Below, in pieces: positions 13,070 to 32,824 of a DNA stretch of 64,000 bases (within the stretch, counting starts at the first letter, position 1; the number at the start of each line of letters is the position of its first letter). The stretch comes from Desulfovibrio sp. MES5 (lineage in GTDB: Bacteria > Desulfobacterota > Desulfovibrionia > Desulfovibrionales > Desulfovibrionaceae), in the NCBI RefSeq assembly GCF_002237645.1, contig NZ_MJUZ01000006.1, forward strand, positions 1 through 64,000. The letters are read 5' to 3'. The position numbers were made by a program, and so were the translations under genes. Under the pieces are notes generated by a model, which was not told where the DNA came from, ran no database searches, and saw only the letters and a list, made by a program, of their open reading frames with translations.

Positions 13070-13320
13070 GGCTTCGTATCCGGCGTATCCGGCGTATCCG
13101 GCGTTTTCGGTGTGGCGTTCGTGTCCGCCATCTCCGGTGTATTCGGCGTAACCGGCGTAGCTGTCATATCCGGCGCAGCGCTCGCAGCACCCGCGCGGGA
13201 TTATTGCCACGGCCCTGTAGCCGCGCAGCCCAGGCCGTCCTGACTGGCCCAGCCCTGCTTCCGTCTCAGTCCTGCTCCCGGCCCAGCCCTGCTCCCTTCC
13301 CAGTCCAGCTTCCGGCTCAG
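13070..13320. repeat. Short degenerate tandem repeats next to the repressor
   Basis: Bases 13075-13165 are a run of TCCGGCGTA-like 9-base units and 13235-13320 a run of CAGTCCAGCTTCC-like units. Open frames through them encode only Ser-Gly-Val or Pro-Asp-Thr repeats, with no start signals of note, so I treat them as noncoding. Similar tracts occur at 9590-9660 (inside the response regulator gene) and 11340-11420. Confidence 0.6.
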
Positions 13321-13988
13321 TCCAGTTCCCGCCCCACCCACACGGCGCGCCCTATAACGCGCACGAGATCAGCTAGCTGTTCGCCGGTATCCGCCTCTAT
13401 GGGCGCATAGTCGGGATTGAAGCTTGTCAGAATGAGCCTGCCCGGCATGGCGTTGACCACCTTGAGGTACACCATATCTTCCACGCCCACCGCATAGATG
13501 CGGCCCGGCACGGGATCGCGCTGCCCCTGGTCTATGAGCACAACGTCATTGTGCATGATCTGCGGTTGCATGCTGTCGCCCGAAACGCGCAGAAGGACCA
13601 TCTGCGATGGGTTGCCCTTGCGGTGGAGAAAATCCCAGCGAAAAGCATAGTGCCGCAGCACCTCGCCGCCCGTTTCAAAGCTGCCCCTGCCAGCGGAAAG
13701 CCTGGCTTCCACCATGGGCACCATGACCAGCCTGGCCTCGCCCGCGCCGCCGTCGTCAACGGCCTCCTTGCCAGCCAACAGCCAGTCAAGGGAACAGTCC
13801 AGCGCCTCAGCCAGACGCACCGCAAACTCGCCCTTGGGCATCTGCCCTTTTTCGTATTGCTGAATGGTGGTCAGGCTTACCCCTACCTCGTTGGCCACAT
13901 CCTGCTTGTGCAGGCCAAGAGTCTCGCGCCGCTGGCGCAAACGCTGCGCGAAGATTCTGGACAAATTCACTCCTGCTGCTGTTTTCAT
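13317..13988 (-). CDS. CI/LexA-like phage repressor with S24 peptidase domain
   Basis: 223 aa. The N-terminal Cro/CI helix-turn-helix covers about residues 11-70 (QDVANEVGVSLTTIQQYEKG, then LAEALDCSLDWLLAG). The C-terminal domain is peptidase S24 with the nucleophile serine in GDSMQPQI and the general-base lysine in VYLKVVN. An Ala-Gly pair just after the DNA-binding domain fits the usual self-cleavage site. Such repressors hold phage late genes silent and are inactivated by RecA filaments after DNA damage. It is divergent from the plus-strand phage module and separated from it by an AT-rich region with repeated motifs, so control of that module is the natural inference. Confidence 0.9.
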   Translation of the reverse strand: MKTAAGVNLSRIFAQRLRQRRETLGLHKQDVANEVGVSLTTIQQYEKGQMPKGEFAVRLAEALDCSLDWLLAGKEAVDDGGAGEARLVMVPMVEARLSAGRGSFETGGEVLRHYAFRWDFLHRKGNPSQMVLLRVSGDSMQPQIMHNDVVLIDQGQRDPVPGRIYAVGVEDMVYLKVVNAMPGRLILTSFNPDYAPIEADTGEQLADLVRVIGRAVWVGRELD

Positions 13989-14296
13989 GGCGCTTCCATT
14001 GGCAAAAGTACCGTTTTAAAACTTTTCTTTAAAAACTCTTGAAAGGTTTTATTCACCCGCCCAGACCATATCCACTTTTTCTCGATCTTACAATCTTTTC
14101 TTTTAAAACAGCGCAAAATCGCAGCGTATAGCTAGGATTTTTGCCCTAAAATCTGGCCTTATGTAAAATAAAACATATAAATAACAGCATTATAAATCTT
14201 TTCTTTTAATTAAAAACTTTTCCCTTGCTCGTTAAAATAAAAAATTATAAATCTTCCCATAGCACGACATTCCATATTCACTTCAGGGAGCATAGC
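13989..14296. promoter_or_regulatory. Repressor-activator control region with three repeated motifs
   Basis: A strongly AT-rich stretch between the divergent repressor and first phage-like gene, in contrast to the GC-rich flanks. The motif CTTTTCTTTTAA or a one-base variant occurs three times, near 14022-14034, 14094-14106 and 14198-14210, each followed by A residues. These are the best candidates for repressor operators. Divergent promoters must lie here. The repeats are read directly; their use as operators is inferred. Confidence 0.55.
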
Positions 14297-14605
14297 ATGT
14301 CAGAATTTAATAACAACATCGAAACCGTAAGCGCTGTGCTGGACATTTTGCAAAACAACGCCCTCCCCGCCCAAAAACCTGTGCTGCGCCTGCTGGGTGA
14401 CCACCTGCGTCTGCTTGTCCGCTGCATGGACGAAGAGGCGCTCTGCCCGCCGCACATGCCCTCAGGCACGCCCACGCCCGGCACATCCCGGCTGGCCGCA
14501 TTCCCGCCCGTTACGGATGCTTCGCGCCTGGCGGAGAGTTCGCACATGGCGGCCGCTGACGGAACCGCGCGGAGATTTCAAGAGGTGGGTCATGTACGCC
14601 AGTAG
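14297..14605 (+). CDS. Small phage-region protein of unknown function
   Basis: 102 aa starting MSEFNNNIETVSAVLDIL. The start has GGGAG 6 bases upstream. The N-terminal half looks helical (LDILQNNALPAQKPVLRLLG) and the second half is Pro/Ala-rich and probably disordered. I do not recognise a family. It overlaps the Mor-like gene by 14 bases, so the two are co-translated, and it is the first gene after the control region. It could be a small regulator or accessory factor of the activator. Confidence 0.6.
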   Translation: MSEFNNNIETVSAVLDILQNNALPAQKPVLRLLGDHLRLLVRCMDEEALCPPHMPSGTPTPGTSRLAAFPPVTDASRLAESSHMAAADGTARRFQEVGHVRQ

Positions 14606-15242
14606 CGCATCCGGCGCGGCCCCTGCCCGCATTTACTCTTCTGCCCGCACGGCCAGCGCCGCGCCCACGCCCCAAGGCAAAACACCGCGACCAGCGGCTT
14701 CTGGCGGGCGGCGTTCGTGGGGACAGGCCCTGCTGAAGGCGGATCAGAAAAAGCGCTGGCAACAACTGCTGGAGCATTTGCCCGAAAACATGCGGCAAAT
14801 ATGGCATGCCCTGGGTGGGCAGGAAAAAGGACGGCTGGACGACCTCTGGCGACTGCTTGATACCTATGGCGGGCAGACCATCCGTGTGCCCGCCGTCATA
14901 CCTGCGGAGCGCCATCATCCCCTGTGCCGCCGGTTGGGGAGGCGCTGCGCGGCCAGACTGGTGGCGGCCTTTGGCGGAACCCCGCTGTACGTGCCGCGCT
15001 GTTCTTCCGTGCTCACCAAACTCCGCCAGCAGGAGATCATTGAGACCTTTTCCCGCCATACCGCACAGGGCACAAGCAGCACCGCTGCCGTGGCCTGTCT
15101 GGCCCGGCGGCATGGGCTGTCTGACCGTCAGGTATGGAAAATCCTCAAAAAAGTGGCCTCAGCTCCGGCGCAGGGCCATTTGCTCCACGAGTTCAAAGAA
15201 CTGGGCACACAAAAAGAAAATCAAGATAACCATCTGCAATAA
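14592..15242 (+). CDS. Mor-like transcription activator
   Basis: 216 aa. After a disordered N-terminal third, the middle and C-terminal parts match the Mor/C activator pattern of Mu-like phages: LWRLLDTYGGQTIRVPA, a central RLVAAFGGTPLYVPRC strand pair (dimer domain), then a helix-turn-helix (RQQEIIETFSRHT and ACLARRHGLSDRQVWKILKK). Mor proteins switch on middle or late transcription. The start at 14592 has AGAGGTGG upstream and overlaps the previous gene. A terminator follows at 15283, then the late genes, so it probably activates a promoter in 15310-15480. A Mu-type activator before podovirus-type structural genes is a mosaic arrangement. Confidence 0.78.
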   Translation: MYASSASGAAPARIYSSARTASAAPTPQGKTPRPAASGGRRSWGQALLKADQKKRWQQLLEHLPENMRQIWHALGGQEKGRLDDLWRLLDTYGGQTIRVPAVIPAERHHPLCRRLGRRCAARLVAAFGGTPLYVPRCSSVLTKLRQQEIIETFSRHTAQGTSSTAAVACLARRHGLSDRQVWKILKKVASAPAQGHLLHEFKELGTQKENQDNHLQ

Positions 15243-15282
15243 ATAGTAAAAACACCAAACTGCACAGGCAAAAATATTTATA

Positions 15283-15308
15283 AGCCCGCGAAATCGTGGG
15301 CTTTTTTT
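15283..15308 (+). terminator. Intrinsic terminator after the Mor-like gene
   Basis: Stem AGCCCGCG/CGTGGGCT with an AAAT loop, followed by seven T residues. It separates the regulatory genes from the late operon. Confidence 0.85.
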
Positions 15309-15483
15309 ATTTCATTTTTGGCCTGAAAGGGGGGTCTGCACAGTCCCGACCCGCGCCAGCCGGGGAAATAGCGGTGCTGAACCCGTTCAGTCTTACCGCG
15401 AGCCGCCTTTTTGGCATGTTGTACCCACGCCGCCGATGACGGAGGCGCAACGCTCACAGCCATCATGACCGGGAGAACATGCC

Positions 15484-16167
15484 ATGACCGCATTTTTTCA
15501 AAAAGCCCACGACTTCACCGCCCGATGGGAAGGCGGCCTTTCCGACCATCCCGCTGACCCCGGCGGCCTGACCATGTACGGCGTTTCACTGCGCTGGGTT
15601 CAGGACCTGGCCCGCCAGGCCCGCGAGGACTGCCTGCGTCAGGCCCGCAGCTGTGACGGCTGCTCCGATGCGCGCACCCCCAGGTGCGGCTATGCCAGCC
15701 TTGATATGGACATGGACGGCGATGTGGACGCTGACGACATCCGCGCCTGCACCAGGGCGCAGGCCGCCGCTCTGTTCAAAAAACACTTCTGGGACAAGCT
15801 CGGCTGCGGCGGGCTTCCCCTGCCCCTGGCCGTGACCCTGTATGACGGCGCCGTGAACATGGGCCCGGCCCGGGCCGTGCGCCAGATGCAGCGGGCCATG
15901 AACACTGTGGGGGAATCTGAGCTCGACCGCTACGTGCCCATTGCCGAAGACGGCATCATGGGGCCGCGCACGGGCCAACTGGCTGAGGCGCTGGAACAGG
16001 GCGGCAAACACTGGTTCGCGGCCCGTCAGGTACTGCGCCTGCGTGATGCTTTTTACCGTGACCTTGCCGCGCGGCGGCCCTCCATGCAGGTGTTTCTGGC
16101 GGGGTGGCGCAACCGGGTCAAAGCCTTGAACCAGTATCTGGCTGAACTGGAAAGGGAGGACGGCTGA
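15484..16167 (+). CDS. Phage endolysin, GH108-type muramidase with Ca-loop insertion
   Basis: 227 aa. The N-terminus FTARWEGGLSDHPADPGGLT carries the glutamate and the DHPxDPGG signature of glycoside hydrolase 108 N-acetylmuramidases, and the C-terminal part (LYDGAVNMGPARAVRQMQ, then DGIMGPRT) fits the rest of the domain and its peptidoglycan-binding-like end. Between them, about residues 50-95, is a cysteine-containing insertion with DMDMDGDVDADDI, an EF-hand or dockerin-like calcium loop not usual for this family. It lacks a signal peptide and therefore relies on the holin gene whose ATG overlaps its stop. It degrades the cell wall for particle release. Confidence 0.88.
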   Translation: MTAFFQKAHDFTARWEGGLSDHPADPGGLTMYGVSLRWVQDLARQAREDCLRQARSCDGCSDARTPRCGYASLDMDMDGDVDADDIRACTRAQAAALFKKHFWDKLGCGGLPLPLAVTLYDGAVNMGPARAVRQMQRAMNTVGESELDRYVPIAEDGIMGPRTGQLAEALEQGGKHWFAARQVLRLRDAFYRDLAARRPSMQVFLAGWRNRVKALNQYLAELEREDG

Positions 16168-16478
16168 TGTGGATGTTGCTTGGCAAACTTCTTGGCGGCC
16201 TCACGGGCCTCGCGGACAGGATCGTGCCCGACCGCAACCGGCAGAACGAGGCCCAGAGCCGTATCAATGAGGCTGAGGTTTCTGGCGCGCCAGCCAGCCG
16301 CATGCGCCTGTGGCGTTCGTTTCTTGGCTGGGTGCTGGCCCTGCTGTTTTGCTGGGAGGTCGTAGGGCGTCTGGTTATCGTGCCGCTGTTTTTCGCCGGA
16401 TGGGGCGACAAACTGCCGCCCTCGGCCCTGGATCAGGTCATGGCCCTTCTTTTGGGCATGCTGGGACTGGGATTTTGA
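16167..16478 (+). CDS. Holin-like membrane protein
   Basis: 103 aa. A short N-terminal amphipathic stretch and a charged segment (DRNRQNEAQSRINEAE) precede two hydrophobic segments (WVLALLFCWEVVGRLVIVPLF and VMALLLGMLGLGF). This layout fits the Holin_3TMs family found beside GH108 endolysins. The start overlaps the endolysin stop, so both are made together as a lysis cassette. Its role would be to permeabilise the inner membrane. Confidence 0.75.
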   Translation: MWMLLGKLLGGLTGLADRIVPDRNRQNEAQSRINEAEVSGAPASRMRLWRSFLGWVLALLFCWEVVGRLVIVPLFFAGWGDKLPPSALDQVMALLLGMLGLGF

Positions 16479-16698
16479 CAGGGGCGACGCGGCTGCAAAA
16501 AACGACGCCCTGAAAAAACGCGACCGACACGTCCAAGCCCAGATAACCAGCCCCCTGGCTATTGCATCCTGAAAGCCCGCGCCTGGAAAGCCGCATGCAA
16601 CACGCGGCGCGGCCCACGGGGCTGCGGTACTGCGAGACTGCGGGACTGCGGGACTGCGGTAGTGCGGCATGTTCAAACGCAGCACAATGGAGATCATC

Positions 16699-17118
16699 AT
16701 GACTATGGATATTTTTTCTTCATCCGGCGCATCCCTGCTGGTGCTTGGCGTTCAGGGGCTTTTTGCCTGGGCGCTCTGGAGCCTGCGCCGCGCCTTTGTG
16801 CGGCAGGACGACTACCTTTTGCACATACAGCGTGATGCCCGGCGCGAGGCCGCCGCCTGCCGCCGCATCAGCGCTCTGGAAGAAACCCTGCGCCTCACGC
16901 CGGACAATGCCGATCTGGCAGGCCTGCACAACGAACTTTCGACCCTGCGCGGCGAAATACAGGCCCTGAACATTCGCATTTCCGGCCTGGATCGGCTTCT
17001 GGAACGGCTGGAACACAGTCTGGAACGGCAGGAGGACCGCCTGCACCTCATTCCGCCTGTCCGGCAAGGCGCTTTTTTGCGCACGTCCGGCATTGGCGCC
17101 AATGGAGAAAACCACTGA
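16699..17118 (+). CDS. Small membrane-anchored coiled-coil phage protein (DUF2730-like)
   Basis: 139 aa: one N-terminal membrane segment (LLVLGVQGLFAWALWSL) followed by a long charged helix with heptad-like Leu spacing (EIQALNIRISGLDRLLERLE). Size and layout match Mu gp25-type DUF2730 proteins and spanin-like accessory proteins near lysis genes. I chose the ATG at 16699 because GGAG lies about 10 bases before it; 16669 is an alternative. It overlaps the next gene by one base. Function is unknown. Confidence 0.62.
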   Translation: MTMDIFSSSGASLLVLGVQGLFAWALWSLRRAFVRQDDYLLHIQRDARREAAACRRISALEETLRLTPDNADLAGLHNELSTLRGEIQALNIRISGLDRLLERLEHSLERQEDRLHLIPPVRQGAFLRTSGIGANGENH

Positions 17119-17402
17119 TGCCCGCCTCAAGCCCTCGCAGCAGAAAAACGCGGAAAAGCTCGCGCCTGCTGGACAGCCTGGAGCAACGCCTTGATCTGCT
17201 CACGCGCACACTGGGCGAGGCTGAAATTGCCGGAAAAAGCATTGATATCGTCAAGGAAATAAAAGAGCTGCACGCAATTTTACGTTCATTGCGCGAGGAA
17301 GACGCGCCCGATGCGCCGCCCAAGGTCGTGGTGGTGTGGGGCGGCCCGCCCAGTTCATCGTCTGGCAAGGGGTCCTCGTCAGAAGCCACCGTGGCCCCTT
17401 GA
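17118..17402 (+). CDS. Small phage protein, possible terminase small subunit
   Basis: 94 aa. A basic N-terminal tail leads into a helical centre (LLDSLEQRLDLLTRTLGEAE, then IVKEIKELHAILRSL) and a Ser/Gly-rich end. No family is certain. Its place directly before the large terminase, its size and its basic helical content make it a candidate DNA-recognition subunit, but I see no clear helix-turn-helix. It overlaps the gene before it (TGATG). Confidence 0.5.
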   Translation: MPASSPRSRKTRKSSRLLDSLEQRLDLLTRTLGEAEIAGKSIDIVKEIKELHAILRSLREEDAPDAPPKVVVVWGGPPSSSSGKGSSSEATVAP

Positions 17403-17553
17403 CAGATGTCTTCTGGCAGACGGCCCCAGGCTGACGACCTTCTGGCAGGCTGCCCCCTGGCAGGCAGGCGGATCCCAAACGAGCTGGCCTCACTGCAACG
17501 TGAATCCTTTGAACGCCAGTCTGATCCAGACCACACAGGAGGCTTCAACGCTT

Positions 17554-18888
17554 ATGCCGCATGTCATCCCCTACAGTCCGCGCCCCCTGCAATGGCAGTT
17601 TCACGAGGAGCGCAAGCGCTTCTGCGTGCTGCTCTGCCACAGGCGTTTCGGCAAAACCGTGGCGGCGGTCAATGATCTCATCCGGCAGGCGCTTGTCTCT
17701 GGCCGTGAAGACTGGCGGGCCGCCTATGCCGCGCCATTCCAGGGGCAGGCGAAAGCCGTGGCCTGGGATTACTGCAAGCGCTTTGCCGGAGCCATACCCG
17801 GTTCGCGCTTTCTGGAAAGCGAGCTTGTATGCGTTTTGCCCACCGGAGGCCGCATACGGCTGCTCGGCACCGAGAACGCCCCTGCCCTGCGCGGTCTGTA
17901 TCTGGACGATCTTGTGCTGGACGAACCCGCCGACATGCCGCGTCAGGTCTGGACGCAGATTTTCCGCCCCATGCTGGCAGACCGTCTGGGCCGGGCGCTG
18001 TTCTGCGGCACGCCGCAGGGCACGGACAACCTGCTTTACGATGTCTGGCAGCAGGCCGGAGCCGACACGGAAGGGTTGTGGTCGCGCTTCCGGTTCCCGG
18101 CCTCGCTGACAGGCTACCTGCCCCAGGTTGAACTGGCGGCCGCGCGGCGCAGCATGGACGAAGCCGAATACATGCAGGAGTTTGAATGCTCCTTTGCCGC
18201 CGCCGTGCGCGGGGCCTACTACGCGCCCCTGATGGACGCCGCCGACCGCGAGGGCCGCATTATCCCGCTGCCCTGCGCGCCGGAACTGCCCGTGCACACG
18301 GCCTGGGATCTCGGCATGGATGACGCCACGGCCATCTGGTTTTTTCAGGTGGAGCCTTCGGGCCAGTGGCGCTTTGTGGACTACTACGAAGCATCGGGCG
18401 AGGGCCTTGCCCACTACGCGGGCGTGCTGGCCCAAAAGGCGCGCCCGGCAGGGCAAGCGCCGCTGGACGGCCAGTCTGGCATGGTGGGCCGGGGCTTTAC
18501 CTACGGCACGCATCTGGCCCCGCACGACATCCGCGTGCGCGAGCTGGGCACAGGTCAAAGCCGGTGGGAAAGCGCGGCTCAGCTGGGCATCCGCTTTACC
18601 CTGGCTCCGTCCCTGAGTCTGGCCGACGGAATTGACGCCGTGCGCCGCCGCCTGCCCCGCTGCTGGTTTGACGCCGTTTTTTGCGCGGGGGGCGTCAAGG
18701 CCCTGCGGGCCTACAGACGGCAATGGCGGCCAGGGCAGCAGGCGGCAGGTTCCGGCCCCCTGCACGACTGGACAAGCCACGCGGCAGACGCCCTGCGCTA
18801 CGCGGCCACGGGATTTCGTCCGCCACAGGACGCGCATGGCGGCCAGCGCCGCGCCAAAACCCATTACGATGTCTTTGGAGGCTCCTGA
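17554..18888 (+). CDS. Terminase large subunit
   Basis: 444 aa DNA-packaging motor. The N-terminal ATPase domain has a Walker A-like CHRRFGKT (about residues 26-33), typical of phage terminases, and a Walker B segment LVLDEPADM near residue 120. The coupling motif is near FCGTPQGTDN. The C-terminal nuclease domain has AWDLGMDDATAIWFF, with metal-binding acidic residues, and a late DWTSHAADALRYA. The ATG at 17554 is preceded by AGGAGG, so the 81 residues encoded upstream in frame are not counted. It ends on the start codon of the next gene. No HNH nuclease accompanies it. Confidence 0.92.
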   Translation: MPHVIPYSPRPLQWQFHEERKRFCVLLCHRRFGKTVAAVNDLIRQALVSGREDWRAAYAAPFQGQAKAVAWDYCKRFAGAIPGSRFLESELVCVLPTGGRIRLLGTENAPALRGLYLDDLVLDEPADMPRQVWTQIFRPMLADRLGRALFCGTPQGTDNLLYDVWQQAGADTEGLWSRFRFPASLTGYLPQVELAAARRSMDEAEYMQEFECSFAAAVRGAYYAPLMDAADREGRIIPLPCAPELPVHTAWDLGMDDATAIWFFQVEPSGQWRFVDYYEASGEGLAHYAGVLAQKARPAGQAPLDGQSGMVGRGFTYGTHLAPHDIRVRELGTGQSRWESAAQLGIRFTLAPSLSLADGIDAVRRRLPRCWFDAVFCAGGVKALRAYRRQWRPGQQAAGSGPLHDWTSHAADALRYAATGFRPPQDAHGGQRRAKTHYDVFGGS

Positions 18889-19835
18889 TGCTTCTTAACT
18901 ATGCGCCAGCCGTCAGCCGAGCCCAGCGGGACGCCATCTTTTTACGCATGCAGGCCGAGGGGCTGCTTAACTGCGCCATGAGCGCGCTTGCCGCGCCCAC
19001 GCTGGCTGACTGGCGGCGCATCACTTCGCCCCGGCGTGGGCTGCTGCTCTGCTGCCACGCTGCTGAAGACAACGACCCCCGAGGCAAGAGCGGGCCCGCG
19101 GCGCAACCCAGATACGATTTGACGGCCAGCCCCGACCCCAACGGCCCGGACAGTCAAATGGTTCCGTGTGGGTTGTACGCAAGTGAACTGGCCGCAAATG
19201 AATTGTCCGCAGGTATGCGGCCCTCCCGCACGACACAGCGCTCATCTGCTTTGGCGGCGCTTTCTGACGCCACCGACCCCGGCGCTGCGTCCATGCTGGG
19301 CTGCGCCCTGTTCACACCGCGTCGGGGCAAGGTGTGGGAGTTTGACTTCACCACCTTCCGCCCTGCCGCGCATCTGGCCGTCCGCATGGCGCACGGCGGC
19401 CTGGCCTGGGCTTTCGCCCATCTGGACTGCGCCGCCATTGCGGGCCTGTGCCCCGCGCCCAATCGCCACGCATGGCGGCTGGCCGAAGCTTGCGGTTTTC
19501 ACGTCATGGGCCGCCTGCCGCAAGCCTGCTGGCACGCCCGCAAACAGTGTCATGTGGACGGCGTGCTGGTGCTCTGCACGCCGCGTGATCTTGCAGAACG
19601 AACAAGAGCCAGGGAGGCCGTTATGGGTTTTGGTGGAGGTTACAGTTCCCCCAGTGTTCCTGAAGTTACCCCCGCGCCCAAGCCGGAGGTGCAAAAATCT
19701 GTCACAGAGGCTGCCACCGCCGCCCGTCAGGCGCAGAAGGACAAGGCCAGCAAGGCCGCAGGCATCAACGCCTCGGTCTACACAAGCCCGCTCAACCGGG
19801 CGGACGCCACGCAAAAAACCCTGTTGGGGCAATAG
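18888..19835 (+). CDS. Phage GNAT-like protein fused in frame to a small virion-cluster protein
   Basis: 315 aa. Residues 1-245 resemble the acetyltransferase-like proteins that podoviruses keep between terminase and portal: GCALFTPRRGKVWEFDFTTF, then AHLDCAAIAGLCPAPNRHAWRLAEACGF, the GNAT-type end. A Pro/Ser/Ala-rich insertion of about 75 residues (about 55-130) splits the fold. The last 70 residues match what is normally a separate small protein (MGFGGGYSSPSVPE onward). An in-frame ATG at 19623 with GGAGG 5 bases upstream could make that product alone. The substrate is unknown. The start overlaps the terminase stop by one base. Confidence 0.75.
   Translation: MLLNYAPAVSRAQRDAIFLRMQAEGLLNCAMSALAAPTLADWRRITSPRRGLLLCCHAAEDNDPRGKSGPAAQPRYDLTASPDPNGPDSQMVPCGLYASELAANELSAGMRPSRTTQRSSALAALSDATDPGAASMLGCALFTPRRGKVWEFDFTTFRPAAHLAVRMAHGGLAWAFAHLDCAAIAGLCPAPNRHAWRLAEACGFHVMGRLPQACWHARKQCHVDGVLVLCTPRDLAERTRAREAVMGFGGGYSSPSVPEVTPAPKPEVQKSVTEAATAARQAQKDKASKAAGINASVYTSPLNRADATQKTLLGQ
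19623..19835 (+). CDS. Possible internally initiated small phage protein
   Basis: 70 aa in the same frame as the C-terminus of 18888-19835. It begins MGFGGGYSSPSVPEVTPAPK, then has a helical Ala/Lys-rich segment and a C-terminal SPLNRADATQKTLLGQ. GGAGG at 19613-19617 is well spaced from this ATG, better than expected by chance inside a coding region. Either the fused protein, this short form, or both may be made. It is followed two bases later by the portal gene. Confidence 0.5.
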   Translation: MGFGGGYSSPSVPEVTPAPKPEVQKSVTEAATAARQAQKDKASKAAGINASVYTSPLNRADATQKTLLGQ

Positions 19836-19837
19836 AC

Positions 19838-24057: not shown

Positions 24058-24229
24058 CCTGGCTTGTGACAGCAAAGAAACCTGCGCCAACGGCGTTGTC
24101 GTATCGTCTCATGCCTGCGGGCACGGCGGCTGAAGCTCTGCCCATCAGCCCGCTTCAATCGCCACGGACAACCACCCCGAACAACCGCCACGCGGCAAAC
24201 GCCACGCCATAATCAAACAAGGAGCCACC

Positions 24230-24673: not shown

Positions 24674-24716
24674 GGCAGACGCTCTCAGAGACAGCGTGAT
24701 GTCATAGGCACTGTCT

Positions 24717-24952
24717 CCCCCCCCACTTCAACAGTGAAATGCTCTCATGCCATATTAGAACATTTAACACTTGAAATGCTCGTGTACGGCAGGCAAAAGC
24801 TTACCTACTCGCATTTCGTGGCAAGGATTTTTAAAAAAATCCTTACAGAGCAGCCAACTCATTTCATTCGTTACCTGCCCTAAATACAGTAAAAGTTTTA
24901 GGAGGTGGGGGCGTGGGGGAGGGCCCCTTTTACAAAAGGGTCCCTCCCCCAC
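24717..24952. repeat. Two dispersed intergenic repeats (GAGCAG family and GC hairpin family)
   Basis: Bases 24740-24890 are a full copy of the repeat also found at 38171-38296 (GAAATGCTCG, GGCAAAAGC, CGCATTTCGTGGCAAGGATT, then TCATTTCATTCGTTA). Bases 24913-24952 form a near-perfect hairpin, GTGGGGGAGGG to CCCTCCCCCAC, also at 31655 and 46576; its conserved CCACCTCCTAAAA-type tail is on the left here, so this copy is inverted. A run of eight C lies at 24717-24724. Both repeats sit between head and tail genes. Confidence 0.78.
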
Positions 24953-25042
24953 AAAGCATCTCACTGTGACAATACCATTGCACGCCTCCGGCTGGCCTAG
25001 CCGCCGGAGGCTTTTTCCATTCTTCACCCCACAGGAGGCGCT

Positions 25043-25633: not shown

Positions 25634-25985
25634 AGCATTTTCGCATTGAGAATATCCATTCTCGCGGTAGCCGTTGCCCGCAGGGCTTGCCTGAACCGTT
25701 GGCGGGACCCGCCTTACGGGGCAGGACAGCATCGCTACGGATGGCGACAGCGATTGTATGGAACAAGCTGTGTCGTTACGCATGCTGTCTTTATCCGTAG
25801 CTTCCTGCGTCACAACGCCTGAAGCAATGCTTCCAAGACGCCCGCTTCGGCGCATAACCGCGCAATAAATTACACTTACGCCTCTGCGGCGGGCGTCTGC
25901 TCACGCAGCCGCCAGAGCAATTTCAAAGTGAAATTGCTCTGGAGCAGTTAACGCCATTCATTCTTTAGCTGCTCCAGCTGGCCGC
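25634..25985. repeat. Block of three dispersed intergenic repeats
   Basis: Bases 25660-25850 are repeated in reverse complement at about 43860-44030 (shared GCAGGGCTTGCCTGAACCGT and GGCAGGACAGCATCGCTACG). Bases 25826-25950 match 51330-51455 (AAGACGCCCGCTTCGGCGC, GCGGCGGGCGTCTGCTC and AGCAATTTCAAAGTGAAATT, a palindrome). A GGAGCAGTTAAC fragment ends the block. No gene is present. Confidence 0.8.
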
Positions 25986-26009
25986 ACACATAACAGCGAG
26001 GATATATTT

Positions 26010-27785
26010 ATGACCATGCCCTATAGTCCCAGCCGGGCCGTCTATGAAGGCAATGACGCGGCCACGCGCTTTCCCTTCGGCTTCAAGGTTTGGGACGCAT
26101 CACAGCTGGTGGTCACGCTCACCTCCCCTGACGGAGCGACCACCGAGGCCTCCGGCTGGACGGCGGATATTGGCGCGTCCGGCGGCGAAATTGTCTATCT
26201 GCATGAGGACGCGCCCCTTCCTTCTGGCTGGAAGCTGGCCGTCACCCGCAACATGCCCTTTACGCAGGAGGTGAACCTCGTCAGTGCCTCACGGTTTGAC
26301 CCGCAGGTCATTGAGGACGCCCTGGACCAGGCCACGGCTGAACGCCAGCAGACGCTCGAGATGATGCGCCGCGCCGTCATTCTGCCAGCCACCAGCAGCG
26401 AAACGCCGCAGGACGTGGTGCTGGCTGTCTACGCCGCCCGCGACGATGCGCAAAACGCCAGCAGCGCCGCCCAGTCAGCCAAGGCAGCGGCAGGAAAAAG
26501 CGCCGAACAAGCAGCGGCCAGTGCTGCGGGGGCCTCGGCTGCCGTTGCGGCAGCGGCAGCAACAGCGGTTACTGCCGCATCGGCGCAAGCAGGCAGGGCG
26601 CAGAGCGCGGCAAACGCCGCAGAAGCGGCGGCCGAGGCGGCGGCAGACAATGCGCGGCAAGCCGTTGCCGCAGAAATCGGTAAGGCATCAAGCGAGGCAG
26701 ACAGAGCGCAATCGGAGGCAAACCGCGCCCAAATAGAAGCCGACCGAGCACAAAGCCTGAGCGATATCGGTCCCGCTGCCTCTGATAAACTTGGTTTCGT
26801 CAAGATTGGCGAGGGCATTGCCATTACGGATGAAGGGGTAATTTCGGTTCCCCCGCCGCCCGAGATTAACCTTGCTACGAACGTAACAGCCGGGACTATC
26901 ATCGTTGGTGAGGGCTTGCGCATAACCGGCCTTGTTGAAGAAGGGCAGGATTCCCCCCCCCCAGGCACGCTTGCGCTTGCTGCTCACTCGGATGAAAGCG
27001 GCGAAAAATATGGCAAGGGTGACAGCCAGTTTTTTGGCCACGTTAAACTGACGGATGATTTTGAGCAGGATGCCGATGCGACAAGCGGTATCTCCATTTC
27101 CCCCAAGGGGGTCAAAACAGCATTTAACAGACTGGTTGGCATTCTTGATGAACAAGTTATCACTTCCTCCCGTACATGGGTAGTACCAGAGACCGGGCGG
27201 TACAAAATAACTAATGTAGGTGGCGGCGGAAACGGAGCTAGCGGTGGTAGCGCTGCCTATGGCTTGTGGCCCTCATGCTATGAATGCGGCAATGTCTACT
27301 CTATTTCGTCTGGCGGTGGCGGCGGCGGCGGTGGCTCTGGTGAAACAACAACTATCACAACAACACTGACAAAGGGGCAATCATACAGCCTCACTATTGG
27401 AGGGGCTGGTGGTACAACATCCTTTGGCGTTCTGCTTACAGCCCGTGGCGGAGGAAACGGTAGCCCCGGAGGCTCCGGAACCGCTAGTTCGGGTGGGAAC
27501 TATGGAGGCTCGGGTGGCAACCCCGGGACGTCTTATGGTGGCGCGGCTGGTCGGGGAGGCAATGGTTACAATGCGAACCGTGAAGGCTACTGGCCGGAAC
27601 CTGTCGGCGGCGGAGGCGGTGGAAGCGGAGGCACTTCAACTGATGGCTATTACGGTAATGGTGGAGCTGGTGGAGCTGGTGGCGGGCAAAGCGATAGCGG
27701 GCGCGGCTATCTATCTTTGTACGGCCCGGCAGGCGGAGGCGCAGGCCGCCAAGGCTGCATAAAAATCAAAATCGTACCCGTGTAG
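26010..27785 (+). CDS. Tail fibre with T7-type anchor and glycine-rich tip
   Basis: 591 aa, the likely receptor-binding protein. The first 130 residues (YSPSRAVYEGNDAATRFPFG, then VNLVSASRFDPQVIEDALDQ) match the N-terminal domain that fixes T7-like fibres to the tail. About residues 145-250 are an Ala-rich coiled coil with ADRAQSEANRAQ repeats. The C-terminal 190 residues are extremely glycine-rich with GGGG and GGSGG runs and end in RQGCIKIKIVPV. Base composition falls in the second half, which suggests a separately acquired tip. A run of ten C residues at 26953-26962 lies in the coding frame. Confidence 0.85.
   Translation: MTMPYSPSRAVYEGNDAATRFPFGFKVWDASQLVVTLTSPDGATTEASGWTADIGASGGEIVYLHEDAPLPSGWKLAVTRNMPFTQEVNLVSASRFDPQVIEDALDQATAERQQTLEMMRRAVILPATSSETPQDVVLAVYAARDDAQNASSAAQSAKAAAGKSAEQAAASAAGASAAVAAAAATAVTAASAQAGRAQSAANAAEAAAEAAADNARQAVAAEIGKASSEADRAQSEANRAQIEADRAQSLSDIGPAASDKLGFVKIGEGIAITDEGVISVPPPPEINLATNVTAGTIIVGEGLRITGLVEEGQDSPPPGTLALAAHSDESGEKYGKGDSQFFGHVKLTDDFEQDADATSGISISPKGVKTAFNRLVGILDEQVITSSRTWVVPETGRYKITNVGGGGNGASGGSAAYGLWPSCYECGNVYSISSGGGGGGGGSGETTTITTTLTKGQSYSLTIGGAGGTTSFGVLLTARGGGNGSPGGSGTASSGGNYGGSGGNPGTSYGGAAGRGGNGYNANREGYWPEPVGGGGGGSGGTSTDGYYGNGGAGGAGGGQSDSGRGYLSLYGPAGGGAGRQGCIKIKIVPV
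26953..26962. repeat. Ten-base poly-C tract within the tail fibre gene
   Basis: Directly visible homopolymer encoding three prolines in the sequence DSPPPG, about residue 318 of 591. In the form given the frame is open. Loss or gain of one C would shift the frame before the glycine-rich tip. Confidence 0.85.
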
Positions 27786-27801
27786 GCTATTGGAGGTTAA
27801 T

Positions 27802-28158
27802 ATGCCAACATTTTACTCCCCCACCGGCAATCCCGAAATATGGGACGAACAGCCAGAGAGCTACATTACTGTTGAAGAGTGGAAAGTTGCCCGTGCGGCC
27901 GAAGAAGCCGAAGCCGAAGCGGCGCGCCTTGCCGAATACAACAGCGTGGCCGCCAGAGCCTCACGATTGCGCGCAGCGCGTGATGCGCTCCTCGCTGCCA
28001 CAGACAAGTTTATGCTGGCTGATTATCCCATTAGTTCTGCAGAATTGGTGGAGGTCAAATCCTACCGTCAGATGCTGCGTGATCTGCCTGCACAGGAGGG
28101 CGCGCCTTTTGACGGCGGCGGCGATGACACGCCCTGGCCCGCGATTCCTCAACTGTAA
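27802..28158 (+). CDS. Tail fibre assembly/chaperone-like protein
   Basis: 118 aa. The N-terminus (PTFYSPTGNPEIWDEQPESY) is fibre-tip-like or chaperone-like. A charged helix follows, then SAELVEVKSYRQMLRDLPAQ and a Trp-Pro end, the pattern of phage tail assembly chaperones (Phage_tail_APC type) that follow fibre genes. GGAGG stands 5 bases before the ATG at 27802. It is 12 bases upstream of the next tail gene. It probably helps the glycine-rich fibre fold, by inference. Confidence 0.75.
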   Translation: MPTFYSPTGNPEIWDEQPESYITVEEWKVARAAEEAEAEAARLAEYNSVAARASRLRAARDALLAATDKFMLADYPISSAELVEVKSYRQMLRDLPAQEGAPFDGGGDDTPWPAIPQL

Positions 28159-28170
28159 CCGGAGCACGCC

Positions 28171-30270
28171 ATGCGCACAGCCCTGCAAAACTTTACTGGC
28201 GGCGAAATAGCGCCCACCCTTTCAGCGCGCTATGATCTGGCGCGATACCGCAACTGCCTTTTCTGCATGGAAAACATGCTCCCCGGCCTGCACGGCGACG
28301 CGGCCCGTCGCCCCGGCACCCGTTTTGTGGCGGACCTTGGCGGGTATTCCGTGCTTATCCCCTTCAGCTTCAGCGCCCTGGCCAGCCAGAATTTCGTGCT
28401 GGTTCTCGGCGACCACAGCCTGCGCATCGCCAGCGAGCGGGGGCTTGAGAACATTACCCCCATTGCGACGCCCTACAGCCCCGATGAACTGCTGGACATC
28501 TCCTACGCCCAGGTGGGGGACATCGTGTACCTCGCCCACAGCAATCACCCCCTGCACAAGGTGGTGCGCCGGGATGCGGTCAGCGGCTCCACCCCGGATT
28601 CCGACTCAGGCTCCGGGGATTCCAGTTCCACTGACGGGCATGCCGCATACGCCTGGCACCTGGAGGCAGTGGCACTCAACACGTCTCTCAAGCCGCCGAC
28701 CACGCCCACGGTGACATTTTCCGGCACGGCGGGCAGCTACACCCTGCGCTACAAGGTGGCGGCCGTGGACGCCAACGGGCGCGAATCCCTTGCTTCGCCC
28801 GCCGGGCAATGCGCCACGGGCCGCCATCCTTCCGACTGGGTGCAGGGCAACAGCGCGGCCATATCCTGGCCCGCCGTTACGGACGCGGTGGAATACAATA
28901 TCTACAGAGAAGAAGCGGGCTACTTTGGCTTTATCGGCGTTTCCACTGGCCTGAGCTTCAGCGACCAGAACTATGAGGCCGATACGTCCGACACCCCGAA
29001 AGAAGACTGGGATCCCTTTGCTGACGGCAATTACCCCGGCGTGGTGACCTTTCATCAGCAGCGTATGGTGCTGGCGGCCACGCCAAAAAGTCCGCAGGCC
29101 TTTTATATGTCGCGCGTGGGCGATTTTGAAAACTTTCGCAAATCCCGCCCGCTGCAGAATGATGACCCCGTGGAATACCTCATTGCCTCCGGCTCCATCG
29201 ACGCCGTCACCTGGGCCGCCAGCTTCGGCGATCTGCTGCTGGGCACATCTGGCAGCGAGTACAAGGCCACCGGGGGCGACGGCAAGGCCATCACGCCGGG
29301 CAACATCAGCATTACGGCCCAAAGCTACTGGGGCAGCGCGGGCCTTGCGCCCATAATCATCGGCAACTCCATCCTGCACGTGCAGCGCCACGGCGCCCGC
29401 GTGCGCGACCTCTTCTATTCGCTGGAAAAAGACGGCTACGCGGGCAATGACCTTTCCATCATGGCCCCGCACCTTTTTGAAGGGCACACCATTTTGCAAT
29501 GGGCCTATCAGCAGACGCCCGGCTCCACCATCTGGTGCCTGCGCGACGACGGCCTGCTGCTGGCTTTCACCTATATGAAGGAGCACGACATATGGGGCTG
29601 GTCGCGGCAGGTTACTGCCGGGCGGGTGCTTTCAGTGGCCGTCATCTCCGGCGAAAAGGGCGATACCCTCATGCTGGTAGTGGAACGCCTGGTAAACGGG
29701 CAGGAGCGCATTTTTCTCGAACGTCTTGCCCCGCAGTGGCAGGATCATGAAGCCATTGAGGAAGCCGTTTTTGTGGACTGCGGCCTGACCCTGCGCCCGC
29801 AGCAGCCCGAAGCCAGCCTGGACGGCCTGGATCACCTTGAAGGGTGCGGGCTGGCCATACTGGCGGACGGCAGCCCGGTAGAAGGCTGCGTGGTGCGCCA
29901 GGGCCGCATAGAACTGCCCTATGCGGCCAGCGTGGTGCAGGCGGGCCTGCCTTATGTTTCAAGCCTCGCCACCCTGCCCATAGAACTGGAGGCCTCTTCC
30001 GGCACAACGCTTGGCCGCCAGCGCGCCCACGGCATGTGCACCGCCCGCCTGTACCGCAGCGTTGGCGGCAAATACGGCCCCAGCAGGCAAGAACTCTACG
30101 ATCTGCCCTTTTTGCCGGAATACTGGGGGCAGGCGGTATTGCCCTACTCCGGCGACGTGTCCTTTGCCCCCGGCGGCACATGGGCGGCGTCAGACAATCT
30201 CTGGTTGGTTCAGGACAGACCCTTGCCCTTCCGGCTGCTTTCCCTGGTGCTGGAAGTGAGTTTTTCCTGA
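28171..30270 (+). CDS. Tail nozzle (tubular B-like) structural protein
   Basis: 699 aa, starting MRTALQNFTGGEIAPTLSAR, the hallmark N-terminus of large podovirus tail-tube or nozzle proteins, followed by RNCLFCMENMLPGLHGDAARRPGTRFV. The middle has a fibronectin-like segment (about residues 175-260) and a beta-propeller-like region with LLLGTSGSEYKATGGDGKAI and SYWGSAGLAPIIIGNSILHV. It would form the short tail through which DNA leaves. GGAG lies before the start. Length is normal for the class. Confidence 0.85.
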   Translation: MRTALQNFTGGEIAPTLSARYDLARYRNCLFCMENMLPGLHGDAARRPGTRFVADLGGYSVLIPFSFSALASQNFVLVLGDHSLRIASERGLENITPIATPYSPDELLDISYAQVGDIVYLAHSNHPLHKVVRRDAVSGSTPDSDSGSGDSSSTDGHAAYAWHLEAVALNTSLKPPTTPTVTFSGTAGSYTLRYKVAAVDANGRESLASPAGQCATGRHPSDWVQGNSAAISWPAVTDAVEYNIYREEAGYFGFIGVSTGLSFSDQNYEADTSDTPKEDWDPFADGNYPGVVTFHQQRMVLAATPKSPQAFYMSRVGDFENFRKSRPLQNDDPVEYLIASGSIDAVTWAASFGDLLLGTSGSEYKATGGDGKAITPGNISITAQSYWGSAGLAPIIIGNSILHVQRHGARVRDLFYSLEKDGYAGNDLSIMAPHLFEGHTILQWAYQQTPGSTIWCLRDDGLLLAFTYMKEHDIWGWSRQVTAGRVLSVAVISGEKGDTLMLVVERLVNGQERIFLERLAPQWQDHEAIEEAVFVDCGLTLRPQQPEASLDGLDHLEGCGLAILADGSPVEGCVVRQGRIELPYAASVVQAGLPYVSSLATLPIELEASSGTTLGRQRAHGMCTARLYRSVGGKYGPSRQELYDLPFLPEYWGQAVLPYSGDVSFAPGGTWAASDNLWLVQDRPLPFRLLSLVLEVSFS

Positions 30271-30323
30271 AGCAGCCGACACGCCTTCCCTGACTGATCC
30301 TGCAATGCCTTGAAACACATTGG

Positions 30324-30358
30324 TGGGGAGGAACCCTTGCGTAAAAGGGATCCTCCCC
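30324..30358. repeat. Diverged GC-hairpin repeat
   Basis: GGGGAGGA and TCCTCCCC arms with an internal CCCTT/AAGGG extension and a GCGTA loop. It is a shorter relative of the hairpins at 24913, 31655 and 46576. It may also act as a partial terminator after the nozzle gene. The rest of 30271-30530 shows no gene. Confidence 0.7.
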
Positions 30359-30530
30359 GGCGGCCTCATCATTACAAAAAACTATCTTCGTATTTCACAT
30401 CATTACAAAAAACGCCTCGGCCTGAACACGGCTGCCAGAAACCACGCCTGCCGCCATGCGCAACCGTACAATCAATCTGCCCATATTCGCCTGTTTACTG
30501 CATCTCCCTGAATCAACAAAGGAGAACACC

Positions 30531-30989
30531 ATGCTGGCATTTGCCACCGAACCCTTCGCACAACTGGAGGCCGAGGCCCGGCCCCTCACCGCCGCGCACT
30601 GGAGCGAAGTGGAGGCCCCCCTGCACGGAAAAGCGGCCTATGGTCTTGACGCGGCACGCTACGCCCGCCTTGAAAGCCTGAGCATGCTGCACGTCAGCGC
30701 CGCCCGCGCCCCCGACGGCGCTCTGGCAGGCTATGCGGCCTTTACCCTTGTGCCCTGCCCACACCGCCAGGGCATGCTGCTGGCGGCTCTGGACGGACTG
30801 TATCTGTCCCCGCAGGCGCGGGGCGGCTTCACGGCCTTTAACCTGCTGCGCCATGCCGAGACGGAACTCAGGCAACGCGGCGCAGGTCTTGTGCAGTACA
30901 GCTCGCCCGCCTCACGCCCCTGTGACGCCCTGTACCGCCGCCTCGGCGCGCACCATACCGAAACCATCTGGCACAAGGAGCTTTGCTGA
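30531..30989 (+). CDS. Phage-encoded GNAT-type acetyltransferase
   Basis: 152 aa. The GNAT core is visible: GALAGYAAFTLVPCPHRQ, then LDGLYLSPQARGGFTAFNLL, which holds the acetyl-CoA pyrophosphate loop (QARGGF), and RPCDALYRRLGAHHTETIWH at the end. GGAG is 7 bases before the ATG at 30531. The stop overlaps the next gene start. Acetyltransferases of this type are frequent in podovirus tail modules; the target is unknown. Confidence 0.8.
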   Translation: MLAFATEPFAQLEAEARPLTAAHWSEVEAPLHGKAAYGLDAARYARLESLSMLHVSAARAPDGALAGYAAFTLVPCPHRQGMLLAALDGLYLSPQARGGFTAFNLLRHAETELRQRGAGLVQYSSPASRPCDALYRRLGAHHTETIWHKELC

Positions 30990-31564
30990 TGGCCATTGCA
31001 ACCAGTACAGCCGCTGCCATAAGCGCAGCCGTAGCTCTGGCCGGAGCCGCCGTGGGCACGGTCAGTTCCATCCAGCAGGCTGAAAGCCGCCGCCAACAGG
31101 CCGAATATCAGTCTCAAATGGCTGAGCGCAGCGCACAGCAGGCGGAACAGAGCGCCACCCTGGCGGATGATGCCGCCAGGCAGGAAAAACAGGCCGGGTA
31201 TGAAGCTGCGGTAAAAAAACGGCAGGAGGCCGCCCGCATCATCGGCGGGCAAAGAGCGCAGGCGTCGACATCCGGCGCGCAGGTTGACGCGGGCAGCCAG
31301 CTCGATCTGAACCTTGATACCACGGAAAAAGGCGAACTGGACGCCCTGGCCCAGGAGCAGCAGGGCAATGCCGCCTCATATAACCAGCAGGTGCGCGCCT
31401 GGAACCTGCGCAATCAGGCCACAGCGGCCGCTTTGAACGCCGAAAATCTCGGCAGTCACGCGCAGACCGATTATCTGGGCCTGACCACCACCCTGATCAA
31501 CGGCGCTTCCCGCATGGGGCGCAACTTCTACACCCTCGGCACGCGCGGCCCACTGTTGCCCTGA
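30989..31564 (+). CDS. Internal virion/ejection-like protein
   Basis: 191 aa. An Ala/Gly-rich hydrophobic N-terminus (ISAAVALAGAAVGTVSS) is followed by a long Gln/Ala-rich helix (QQAEYQSQMAERSAQQAEQS) and a region GGQRAQASTSGAQVDAGSQL typical of T7 gp14-like internal virion proteins that help DNA cross the envelope. No gp15 or gp16-size ejection proteins follow, so the ejection set looks reduced. It is the last clear virion gene of the module. Confidence 0.8.
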   Translation: MAIATSTAAAISAAVALAGAAVGTVSSIQQAESRRQQAEYQSQMAERSAQQAEQSATLADDAARQEKQAGYEAAVKKRQEAARIIGGQRAQASTSGAQVDAGSQLDLNLDTTEKGELDALAQEQQGNAASYNQQVRAWNLRNQATAAALNAENLGSHAQTDYLGLTTTLINGASRMGRNFYTLGTRGPLLP

Positions 31565-31587
31565 GTACGTAGGCGGGGAGCCAAAAT

Positions 31588-31710
31588 GCTTTTGTGGGGG
31601 AGGGACGTCAGCCCCTTAAGCGCCGCAATCTCGGTTGCCGGGCCAGAATGCTTTGTGGGGGAGGGACCCTTTTGAAAAAGGGTCCCTCCCCCACGCCCCC
31701 ACCCCCTAAA
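31588..31710. repeat. GC-hairpin repeat, one full and one partial copy
   Basis: Bases 31655-31694 form the GTGGGGGAGGGACCC / GGGTCCCTCCCCCAC hairpin with conserved downstream CCCCACCCCCTAAAA. A truncated copy (TTGTGGGGGAGGGAC) lies at 31596-31611, so the element seems partly duplicated. It lies after the last virion gene and may stop transcription, although no T-run follows. Confidence 0.8.
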
Positions 31711-31832
31711 ACGTTTATTCCTGTTTTACGGCTCTTGAAGGGGGTCTTCACATCCGAAACGAGGCTTCCAAGGGTTTGCGCAACGTCTTTCTCTGAAAAA
31801 ACAATAAAACCTCTTTGCTTAAGGGGGGCATT

Positions 31833-32486
31833 TTGAAACGCTCACGCCACAACCGCTATGGCGTTTTCAAGTCCGAGCTGGTTAAAACAGCGCAGTTCAG
31901 CCCGATTTTTGAACTGCCGCAGTTGGAGCCGGTTCATTTTACTCCTGCCAATGCCCTTCCTTTTGAAAAGGCATATAGCAAGGCGACCGACAAAAACTGG
32001 CTGCATTTCTACACTCACGATCATATTTTTGAATGTGTCTGGAACAATCCAAAGCGCTACCTGCCGGTATTCAAGCGTATTGCCGGCGTAATTACGCCGG
32101 ACTTCAGCATATACCGCGAAATGCCATTGGCCATGCAGATATGGAACACCTACCGCAACAGAGCACTGGCCTTTTGGCTGCAACGTGAGGGCGTGCCAAT
32201 CATACCCAATATCCGATGGGGAGACGAACGCACCTACGCCTCTGCCTTTGAAGGTCTGCCCAAAGGGGGAACCGTGGCCGTCAGCACCAATGGCCTGCTG
32301 CGCAACAAACTGGACAGAGAATATTTCAAACAGGGCCTGGCCGTTATGATTGAAACGCTCCAGCCGCGAACCGTCGTCAACTACAGCCGGATGCCGGACG
32401 ATACTTTTGGGCCTTACCGTAACAACGGGCCAGAACTGATTGAAATACCATACTACGCATTTTCTGCTCGCAAGGAGGCCGCGTAA
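31833..32486 (+). CDS. DUF4417-like protein at the end of the phage module
   Basis: 217 aa. YSKATDKNWLHFYTHDHIFE, VITPDFSIYREMPLAMQIWN, RNRALAFWLQREGVPIIPN and GGTVAVSTNGLL match the DUF4417 family, common in phages and mobile elements, with no proven function. The start appears to be a TTG at 31833, with AAGGGGGG 5-6 bases before it; no in-frame ATG is nearby. GC content is lower than in the structural genes, and it follows repeat DNA, so it looks like an added cargo gene. It overlaps the next gene (TAATG). Confidence 0.78.
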   Translation: MKRSRHNRYGVFKSELVKTAQFSPIFELPQLEPVHFTPANALPFEKAYSKATDKNWLHFYTHDHIFECVWNNPKRYLPVFKRIAGVITPDFSIYREMPLAMQIWNTYRNRALAFWLQREGVPIIPNIRWGDERTYASAFEGLPKGGTVAVSTNGLLRNKLDREYFKQGLAVMIETLQPRTVVNYSRMPDDTFGPYRNNGPELIEIPYYAFSARKEAA

Positions 32487-32824
32487 TGGGTGGTGGACGT
32501 GGTGGTGGATTTTTTGCAGGAACAGACGGCTGGCGCGCGTCAGAGGCTTTTGCCAGGGGAACGCTGGTTGCGGCGGCTGCTCAGAACACGGCTACGGACG
32601 CTGGTGGCGGCTCCGGCGGGATACTTGATGCTTTGCGCCCGTGGTGGTCTTACCCGTATGGACATCCAGAAAAAACAAAAAAGATTGAAATGCTGCAAAA
32701 GGCTTTAAAACCGAGAGCGGAAAAAATGGCAAACGGATTTATGTATATGCCAGATATGCCAAACCTGCAGGAAGAATTGATTTATAGTGGAATTGAACTT
32801 TTTAAAAAAAAGCAAAAAAACTGA
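32486..32824 (+). CDS. Small unknown protein coupled to the DUF4417-like gene
   Basis: 112 aa. A Gly/Ala-rich first half (MGGGRGGGFFAGTDGWR) and a Lys-rich, AT-rich second half ending in FKKKQKN. GGAGG precedes the ATG, which overlaps the previous stop. I recognise no domain. Base composition is markedly AT-rich toward the 3' end. It is the last plus-strand gene before the orientation changes, so I take it as the right edge of the phage-like region. Confidence 0.62.
   Translation: MGGGRGGGFFAGTDGWRASEAFARGTLVAAAAQNTATDAGGGSGGILDALRPWWSYPYGHPEKTKKIEMLQKALKPRAEKMANGFMYMPDMPNLQEELIYSGIELFKKKQKN

Follow-up and report, generated by a model that had tools for sequence, protein, structure and literature searches.

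Comparative sequence evidence for a Desulfovibrio short-tailed phage-like gene cluster as a probable, vertically inherited Dd1-type gene transfer agent

Does a compact set of podovirus-type genes lying among chromosomal genes of Desulfovibrio sp. MES5 represent a phage, the remains of one, or a gene transfer agent (GTA) maintained by its host? The window examined in the present study is the first 64,000 nucleotides of contig NZ_MJUZ01000006.1 (assembly GCF_002237645.1), here contig C6 of a 3.47-Mb genome in 52 contigs that carries the label G000. Profile searches and gene comparison with relatives delimit a conserved element of 18.2 kb at positions 13317-31564 of the window. According to the profile searches, the element encodes a complete set of head, packaging, short-tail (epsilon15/BPP-1-type) and lysis proteins with its own repressor and Mor activator, and includes no integration or replication genes. 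We consider it likely that this cluster is a domesticated, vertically inherited and probably functional GTA of the Dd1 type; such an element would fit the sequence evidence more closely than either a phage that is still active or a cryptic prophage.

The connection with Dd1 is made through an 18.1-kb locus (L056) in IMG/VR record 643348538, which has the same genes in the same order, with protein identities of 51-95% (repressor 87%, lysin 86%, large terminase TerL 85%, portal 91%, capsid 95%, tail tube 90% and the phrog_376 protein 82%). An open reading frame (ORF) of 125 aa and 13,545 Da lies directly upstream of terL in this locus, and the IMG number of the record is also the one that we take to be that of D. 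desulfuricans ATCC 27774. For the GTA of D. desulfuricans, the small terminase has been predicted to be Ddes_0720, a 125-aa, 13.5-kDa protein whose gene lies immediately 5' of terL (available sections of Sherlock et al. 2019, PMC6854486). Because its small terminase has this published size, we identify L056 as the Ddes_0702-0725 island of ATCC 27774, termed a "putative GTA island" and a hypothetical gene transfer island in the available text of a 2017 transcriptome paper (PMC5701242). By gene content, order and protein identity, the MES5 cluster is an orthologue of this published putative Dd1 island, from which it differs in belonging to another species and in having a small terminase of 94 rather than 125 aa. 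Dd1 particles contain approximately 13.6 kb of DNA, as against the 18.2 kb of the element. An earlier sequence-only reading of the window had proposed that the cluster encodes Dd1 or a relative, which this orthology supports. The same reading held that the Dd1 genes had not been firmly assigned; the link between island and particle is indeed still putative in the available parts of PMC6854486 and PMC5701242, but a candidate island had already been published there. Ddes_0702-0725 are reported to be repressed up to 100-fold with nitrate, and nine of these genes to be reduced by nitric oxide (PMC5701242, available text); the nitrate repression implies that the island is expressed under other conditions. 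Dd1 is also one of five genetically distinct GTAs named in the accessible part of a 2024 paper (PMC11409702). The portions of open-licence PMC papers that were available describe the putative island, and no account of its conservation, promoter or integrase-bearing forms was found in them. The candidate role of the cluster is already in print as putative; added here are its distribution, co-descent with hosts, selection, late promoter and integrase-bearing forms.

A portal match of some kind was present in 48 of 79 genomes of the genus, and a portal at least 71% identical to that of the window in 35 (the MES5 genome included), each with a single such copy. The remaining portal matches, at 27-52% identity, probably belong mostly to other prophages. 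Regions were read for 31 of the other 34 carriers (G002, G046 and G075 being left aside), for L056 and for G008, a genome close to the MES5 species. D. piger is among the carrying species. Gene order is constant where contigs allow, the exceptions being G031, with the cluster in pieces, and G032, with an inserted integrase. In the window the left flank comprises a histidine kinase, a response regulator, HlyD- and AcrB-type efflux genes and a BOF protein, and the right flank CobU (PF02283, E 2e-44), in agreement with the efflux-type host genes and CobU block recognised earlier from the letters. The response regulator adjoins the cluster in the same orientation in 17 of 31 other carrier regions and also in G008; elsewhere the efflux genes alone are kept or the neighbours differ, and some contigs stop early. 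The right flank is clade-specific, being the CobU block, a DnaJ/ClpB block (judged by eye) or others.

Pairwise distances of seven concatenated cluster proteins follow those of RpoB and RpoC across 27 genomes (r = 0.77 with G008 excluded; none of 2000 permutations was as high), and the cluster and rpoBC trees, also of 27 genomes, share 19 of 24 splits, compared with at most three when labels were shuffled. The cluster is carried by 20 of the 21 genomes (MES5 included) whose RpoB, as a single full-length match, is at least 90% identical to that of the window; the other, G008, has a remnant. A threshold of 89% (full length) adds seven genomes, including G021 and G076, which have only 49-52% portals. 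Genomes with a fragmented RpoB match lie outside this count (carriers G064, G009, G067, G065 and G011; non-carriers including G070, G062, G012, G071, G073 and G066). Taken together, these sequence comparisons indicate that the cluster is inherited with the host genome.

Ratios of nonsynonymous to synonymous substitution rates (dN/dS), calculated pairwise by the Nei-Gojobori method (NG86) for 10 to 12 species pairs, were 0.00-0.12 for the capsid, 0.01-0.11 for the tail tube, 0.04-0.20 for TerL, 0.03-0.22 for the portal and 0.02-0.19 for the repressor, with dS of most cluster genes broadly like that of adjoining host genes. Gene integrity was counted in 32 relatives (the 31 carriers and L056), a gene being called intact if it had no internal stop and at least 80% of the length. 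By this measure the repressor was intact in 30/30, the lysin in 30/30, TerL in 29/31, the portal in 31/32, the capsid in 31/31 and the tail tube in 30/30; relatives that lack a match are explained by the ends of contigs or of the stretches read, or are G031 and G032, where the repressor and lysin genes are located on separate stretches. Faster-evolving genes (small terminase, scaffold, fibre, Mor and the first GNAT) could be aligned only in part, and a few of these matches contain stops. The low ratios point to strong purifying selection on the core genes. Synteny across Desulfovibrio and dN/dS of the structural genes were the checks that the sequence-only reading had suggested, and both came out in its favour.

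The genes from lysis to the internal virion protein are as follows.

15484-16167, plus strand: endolysin with Glyco_hydro_108 (GH108) and PG_binding_3 domains (profile matches)
16167-16478, plus strand: holin (phrog_3427; GTA_holin_3TM slightly below cut-off)
16669-17118, plus strand: DUF2730-like protein (phrog_736; Pfam slightly below cut-off)
17118-17402, plus strand: small terminase candidate, 94 aa (position before terL; orthologue of the 125-aa ORF of L056)
17554-18888, plus strand: large terminase TerL, 444 aa from the ATG at 17554 (phrog_2, E 6e-36)
18888-19835, plus strand: GNAT-like protein between terL and portal (weak matches only)
19838-21793, plus strand: portal or head-to-tail connector (PF12236, E 1e-150)
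21793-22137, plus strand: Bbp19-like protein (PF25181, above cut-off)
22121-22801, plus strand: scaffold/protease-like protein (phrog_458, E 2e-23)
23068-24057, plus strand: major capsid protein, GP7 (epsilon15-type; PF20911, E 2e-101; ATG at 23068 confirmed)
24230-24673, plus strand: capsid cement protein with a beta-rich fold (weak profile match; fold comparison)
25043-25633, plus strand: tail tubular protein (phrog_394, E 5e-42)
26010-27785, plus strand: tail fibre (phrog_1640 and others)
27790-28158, plus strand: tail fibre assembly chaperone (PF16778, E 2e-20)
28171-30270, plus strand: large tail (nozzle-like) protein (phrog_376, E 5e-157)
30531-30989, plus strand: second GNAT acetyltransferase (profile matches)
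30983-31564, plus strand: internal virion protein, the last conserved gene (phrog_418, E 1e-16)

Profile searches thereby bear out the gene content that had been read from the open reading frames (repressor, Mor, endolysin, holin, terminase, portal, scaffold-like, capsid, tail tube, fibre and internal virion genes). The cement assignment, which had also been made there, has a weak profile match and is backed by its predicted fold: the AlphaFold2 model (predicted local distance difference test, pLDDT, 86) has as its best PDB match in Foldseek the Carin1 capsid chain 8cjz_A (E 1.9e-6), followed by 3j4u_H from a Bordetella phage (E 1.5e-3). The small terminase candidate had no Pfam or PHROG match in the profile searches. 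PF03354 was tried as the TerL family and dropped, as it has no match anywhere in the MES5 genome; TerL was found via other profiles.

The right limit of 32824 given by the sequence-only reading is better placed near 31564. A DUF4417 gene and the ORF that follows it, up to 32824, have no counterpart in 28 of 32 relatives; one stop-bearing copy of each was seen, and of the six dN/dS comparisons five gave 0.47-0.58 and one 0.09. For these reasons we ended the element at 31564, and the two genes are probably not part of it. A dispersed repeat of approximately 75 bp occurs at window positions 24890-24963, 31647-31726 and 46555-46638, with two copies inside 13317-32824 and similar ones in L055 and L056. 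The copy at 31655-31694 contains a long inverted repeat, and the repeat is probably a host element of the repetitive extragenic palindromic (REP) kind. Adjoining the cluster, window positions 32875-33935 encode two similar small membrane proteins in tandem, where the GC content is low (44% at 32001-34000); G008 and the three closest species have them as well.

Upstream of the lysis gene lies a control region with the following features.

13317-13988, minus strand: CI/LexA-like repressor with HTH_3 and Peptidase_S24 domains (phrog_4, E 3.6e-47), divergent from the remaining genes
14225-14605, plus strand: small ORF with no family match, overlapping the following ORF and with a homologue in some relatives
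14397-15242, plus strand: Mor-family transcription activator (PF08765, E 7e-13; the domain lies in the C-terminal half)
15282-15303, plus strand: intrinsic terminator-like hairpin after the activator gene mor (from a terminator scan that was overall no richer than shuffles)
15377-15418, plus strand: late promoter element preceding the lysis gene (dyad CTGAA-N4-TTCAG, TCTTAC, N11-TTTTTGGCATG)

The start of the Mor-family activator is probably internal to the called ORF. A similar hairpin and T-run follows mor in many rows of the control-region alignment. The late promoter shows few changes across 18 aligned sequences, chosen from among the copies, though its surroundings have diverged. In a genome scan with the pattern TGAAN{3,6}TTCANNCTTACN{11,17}GGCA, 28 of 33 genomes had a match, 23 of these with exactly one copy, and the reversed pattern was found in none of the 33; the window has one match compared with none in 100 shuffles. 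A fixed form with two mismatches matched in 32 of 33 genomes, but additional sites were matched too. Extra dyad promoter-like sites with one or two mismatches were seen at G000:C52:39491-39530 (minus strand), with similar ones in G057, G058, G003, G042, G007 and G008, and several of them end in GCTAT rather than GGCAT. An exact form occurs in four IMG/VR contigs; judged by their portals, three of these are copies of the cluster and the fourth is related to it at 50%. We dropped an interpretation of TTTTTGGCATG as a sigma-54 element, since by eye GG-N10-GC is not conserved. From the position of the dyad at 15377, and by analogy with Mor of phage Mu, we infer that the Mor-like protein would act there.

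The gap between repressor and mor aligns poorly, and no single repressor operator is discernible in it. The helix-turn-helix and the SAG, GDSM and YLK motifs of the repressor are kept in the 14 printed rows of a 31-row alignment. These motifs are features of self-cleaving S24 repressors, for which reason SOS induction of the cluster is a fair guess from the protein sequence. In the mechanism that we propose, the S24 repressor would keep the locus silent until it is inactivated (the self-cleavage motifs suggest RecA and DNA damage), allowing the Mor-like activator to be made. This would bind the dyad at 15377 and the late operon, from lysin to internal virion protein, would be transcribed. A short small terminase, perhaps without a DNA-binding domain, might then let heads be filled with any host DNA at hand, endolysin and holin would release the particles, and the short tail would inject the DNA into relatives.

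A second copy of the late promoter is present in G001, G005, G042 and G023 (L349-L352), which form one clade; the copies are near-identical among them (in L350 near 9898, minus strand) and stand before an unlinked gene. The gene in G001 encodes RHS repeats (PF05593, E 9e-10) and, after them, a domain of the NlpC/P60 or CHAP type (PF00877, E 6e-6); beyond that domain come arrays of paired small secreted proteins, immunity-like by arrangement only; the loci in G005, G042 and G023 look the same by eye. The RHS/NlpC-P60 locus is a possible trans-encoded member of the late-promoter regulon. More broadly, we tentatively raise the idea, which we would not at present favour over its opposite, that the Desulfovibrio GTA may have its own regulon, in which one Mor-like activator and the dyad promoter serve the late operon and unlinked genes, namely an antibacterial-type RHS/NlpC-P60 locus and its immunity-like arrays (four species) and integrases (one lineage); transfer, lysis and killing or integration would then be switched on together.

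Several observations, set out here and in the following paragraph, weigh against a domesticated GTA. The model of the small terminase candidate, whose two helices would suit a GTA, is of low confidence (pLDDT 64). The distance correlation falls to 0.55 when G008 is included, whose row represents a different prophage, and the portal match of G070, a genome with an RpoB close to those of carriers, reaches only 31%. G023 has its portal divided between two frames, and the aligned portals of G027 and G029 contain one TGA each. G008 has kept the repressor, part of mor, the tail tube to internal virion protein genes and the right flank, and is without the lysin-to-cement genes; the element is dispensable, as packaging genes are among those lost. 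A G008 copy with a 50% portal was rejected as its GTA, being part of another prophage; what remains of the GTA in G008 sits at the ancestral locus. The gap in G008 (L263 14475-17415) contains ORFs resembling an IS3-type transposase and Mu-like regulators, by eye only. Purifying selection by itself would also fit a working phage. The G008 decay and the doubtful portals of G023, G027 and G029 are what would be expected if the cluster were an old cryptic prophage, a temperate podovirus stripped of integration and replication genes in most lineages and retained fortuitously or for some small advantage, for example lysis or superinfection immunity. The repressor is phage-like, and two integrase-bearing virus records, G079 (L060, 47.2 kb) and G080 (L084, 43.7 kb), of which 21.5 kb each was read, have portals of 50-51% identity and the same gene order from portal to internal virion protein. 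Cryptic prophages normally decay, however, and are not orthologous throughout a genus, whereas capsid, tail tube and terL are here mostly intact, have low dN/dS and track the host tree; we therefore regard this explanation as unlikely, though the best of the alternatives.

The clusters of G007, G019 and G063 lie at a different site, with an intact tyrosine integrase 0.2-0.5 kb downstream of the last gene on the same strand, and no cluster gene was found in 20 kb around the response-regulator/BOF locus of these genomes. In G032 an integrase of the same family as that of G007 sits between mor and the late promoter, and in G031, a metagenome-assembled genome of 85% completeness with the cluster in pieces, two integrases follow late-promoter copies. 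Copies of the late promoter in G031 stand in front of lysin, terL and two integrase genes at different sites (L346, L347 and L348), as though promoter-gene units had been reshuffled, although misassembly may be the cause. The element is thus not essential, has changed position at least once and in some relatives is accompanied by an integrase. Integrases beside or among the cluster genes of five relatives, in three arrangements, together with the changed location in the G007, G019 and G063 lineage, would suit a still mobile element, whether an active temperate phage or a phage-like island, that has recruited integrases repeatedly and moves among closely related hosts. Against this, an integrase profile matched only G007, G019 and G063 among the 34 regions searched, that is, neither the window nor 30 of the other 33 regions, and these three genomes group together in the cluster tree as they do in the host tree. 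A relative of the G007-type integrase (E ≤ 1e-40) was detected in 20 of the 79 genomes of the genus; 11 of those 20 lack a portal of at least 71% identity (G008 not counted). No att-like repeats of at least 16 bp were found beside the three integrase-linked copies, which show only 14-15-bp matches, and no tRNA insertion site adjoins the clusters (the tRNAs of G007 are more than 9 kb away). Calls of tRNA-Asn inside the G004 and G007 clusters, on the other strand, look spurious. A mobile element consequently appears very unlikely to us. For the window itself, the absence of an integrase reported by the sequence-only reading stands: searching the whole 64 kb with a profile of 11 integrase sequences gave no match, and 11 query frames from five integrase loci had none there at E ≤ 0.01; it does not extend to the five relatives with a linked integrase. 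The absence of attachment repeats also stands, in that no direct repeat of at least 14 bp is shared by the two flanks (2.5 kb to the left of the repressor, 4 kb to the right of the internal virion gene); the window contains no tRNA. An integrase with att sites in a related strain had been named in advance as a finding that would speak against the proposal; the relatives supply the integrases but, where searched, no att-like repeats of at least 16 bp.

Slightly less probable still is a host-controlled capsid-and-tail device for killing or delivery rather than a DNA shuttle. The late-promoter copy before the unlinked RHS/NlpC-P60 locus with its small secreted protein arrays in four relatives speaks for such a device; against it, terminase and portal, required solely for DNA packaging and not needed by a tail-only weapon, are among the better conserved genes.

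In a comparison with 50,697 phage records, the portal showed 37-39% identity to those of BPP-1 and Carin1 and the capsid 41% to that of phiV10, all matches being below 60%. The cluster resembles BPP-1/epsilon15/Carin1-type podoviruses in its portal, GP7 capsid and cement fold (Carin1 and the Bordetella phage); the named phage records are approximately 39 to 42 kb in comparison with 18.2 kb for the element, which, unlike these phages, has no integration or replication genes and a Mor-type control region. The simplest history is that an ancestor of the carriers captured a temperate podovirus, which lost all but its packaging, structural, lysis and control genes and has been passed down ever since. 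By description, the cluster is set apart from RcGTA-like and other GTAs (Rhodobacter, Bartonella, Brachyspira and Methanococcus) by its short-tailed head type, its own repressor and its Mor-like activator. The FpGTA of Faecalibacterium, most likely podovirus-like and with two operons according to the available text of PMC12946183, is likened to the cluster in these respects, again by description. In another genus (g33; L276-L293), 17 handles have one 39-42% portal each, 17 being the number with a match rather than a share of the genus; 162 further genomes had no match, some of which may belong to g33. A holin-TerL-GNAT-portal block is conserved in the nine g33 genomes read (families checked in G202 only), with a scaffold-capsid block approximately 10-15 kb further on in four of the nine, tail genes in three and host genes in between; these blocks may represent a further GTA in split form, or some other element domesticated long ago.

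The Dd1 candidate island emerges as an orthologous, selected and vertically inherited locus in many Desulfovibrio species, which opens it to experiment, its repressor, activator and promoter being defined. The promoter and late operon would serve as a marker separating GTA copies from prophages, and with the integrase-bearing copies one could examine how mobility may return to a domesticated element. If the identification is true, it would support the existence of a short-tailed GTA outside the Alphaproteobacteria.

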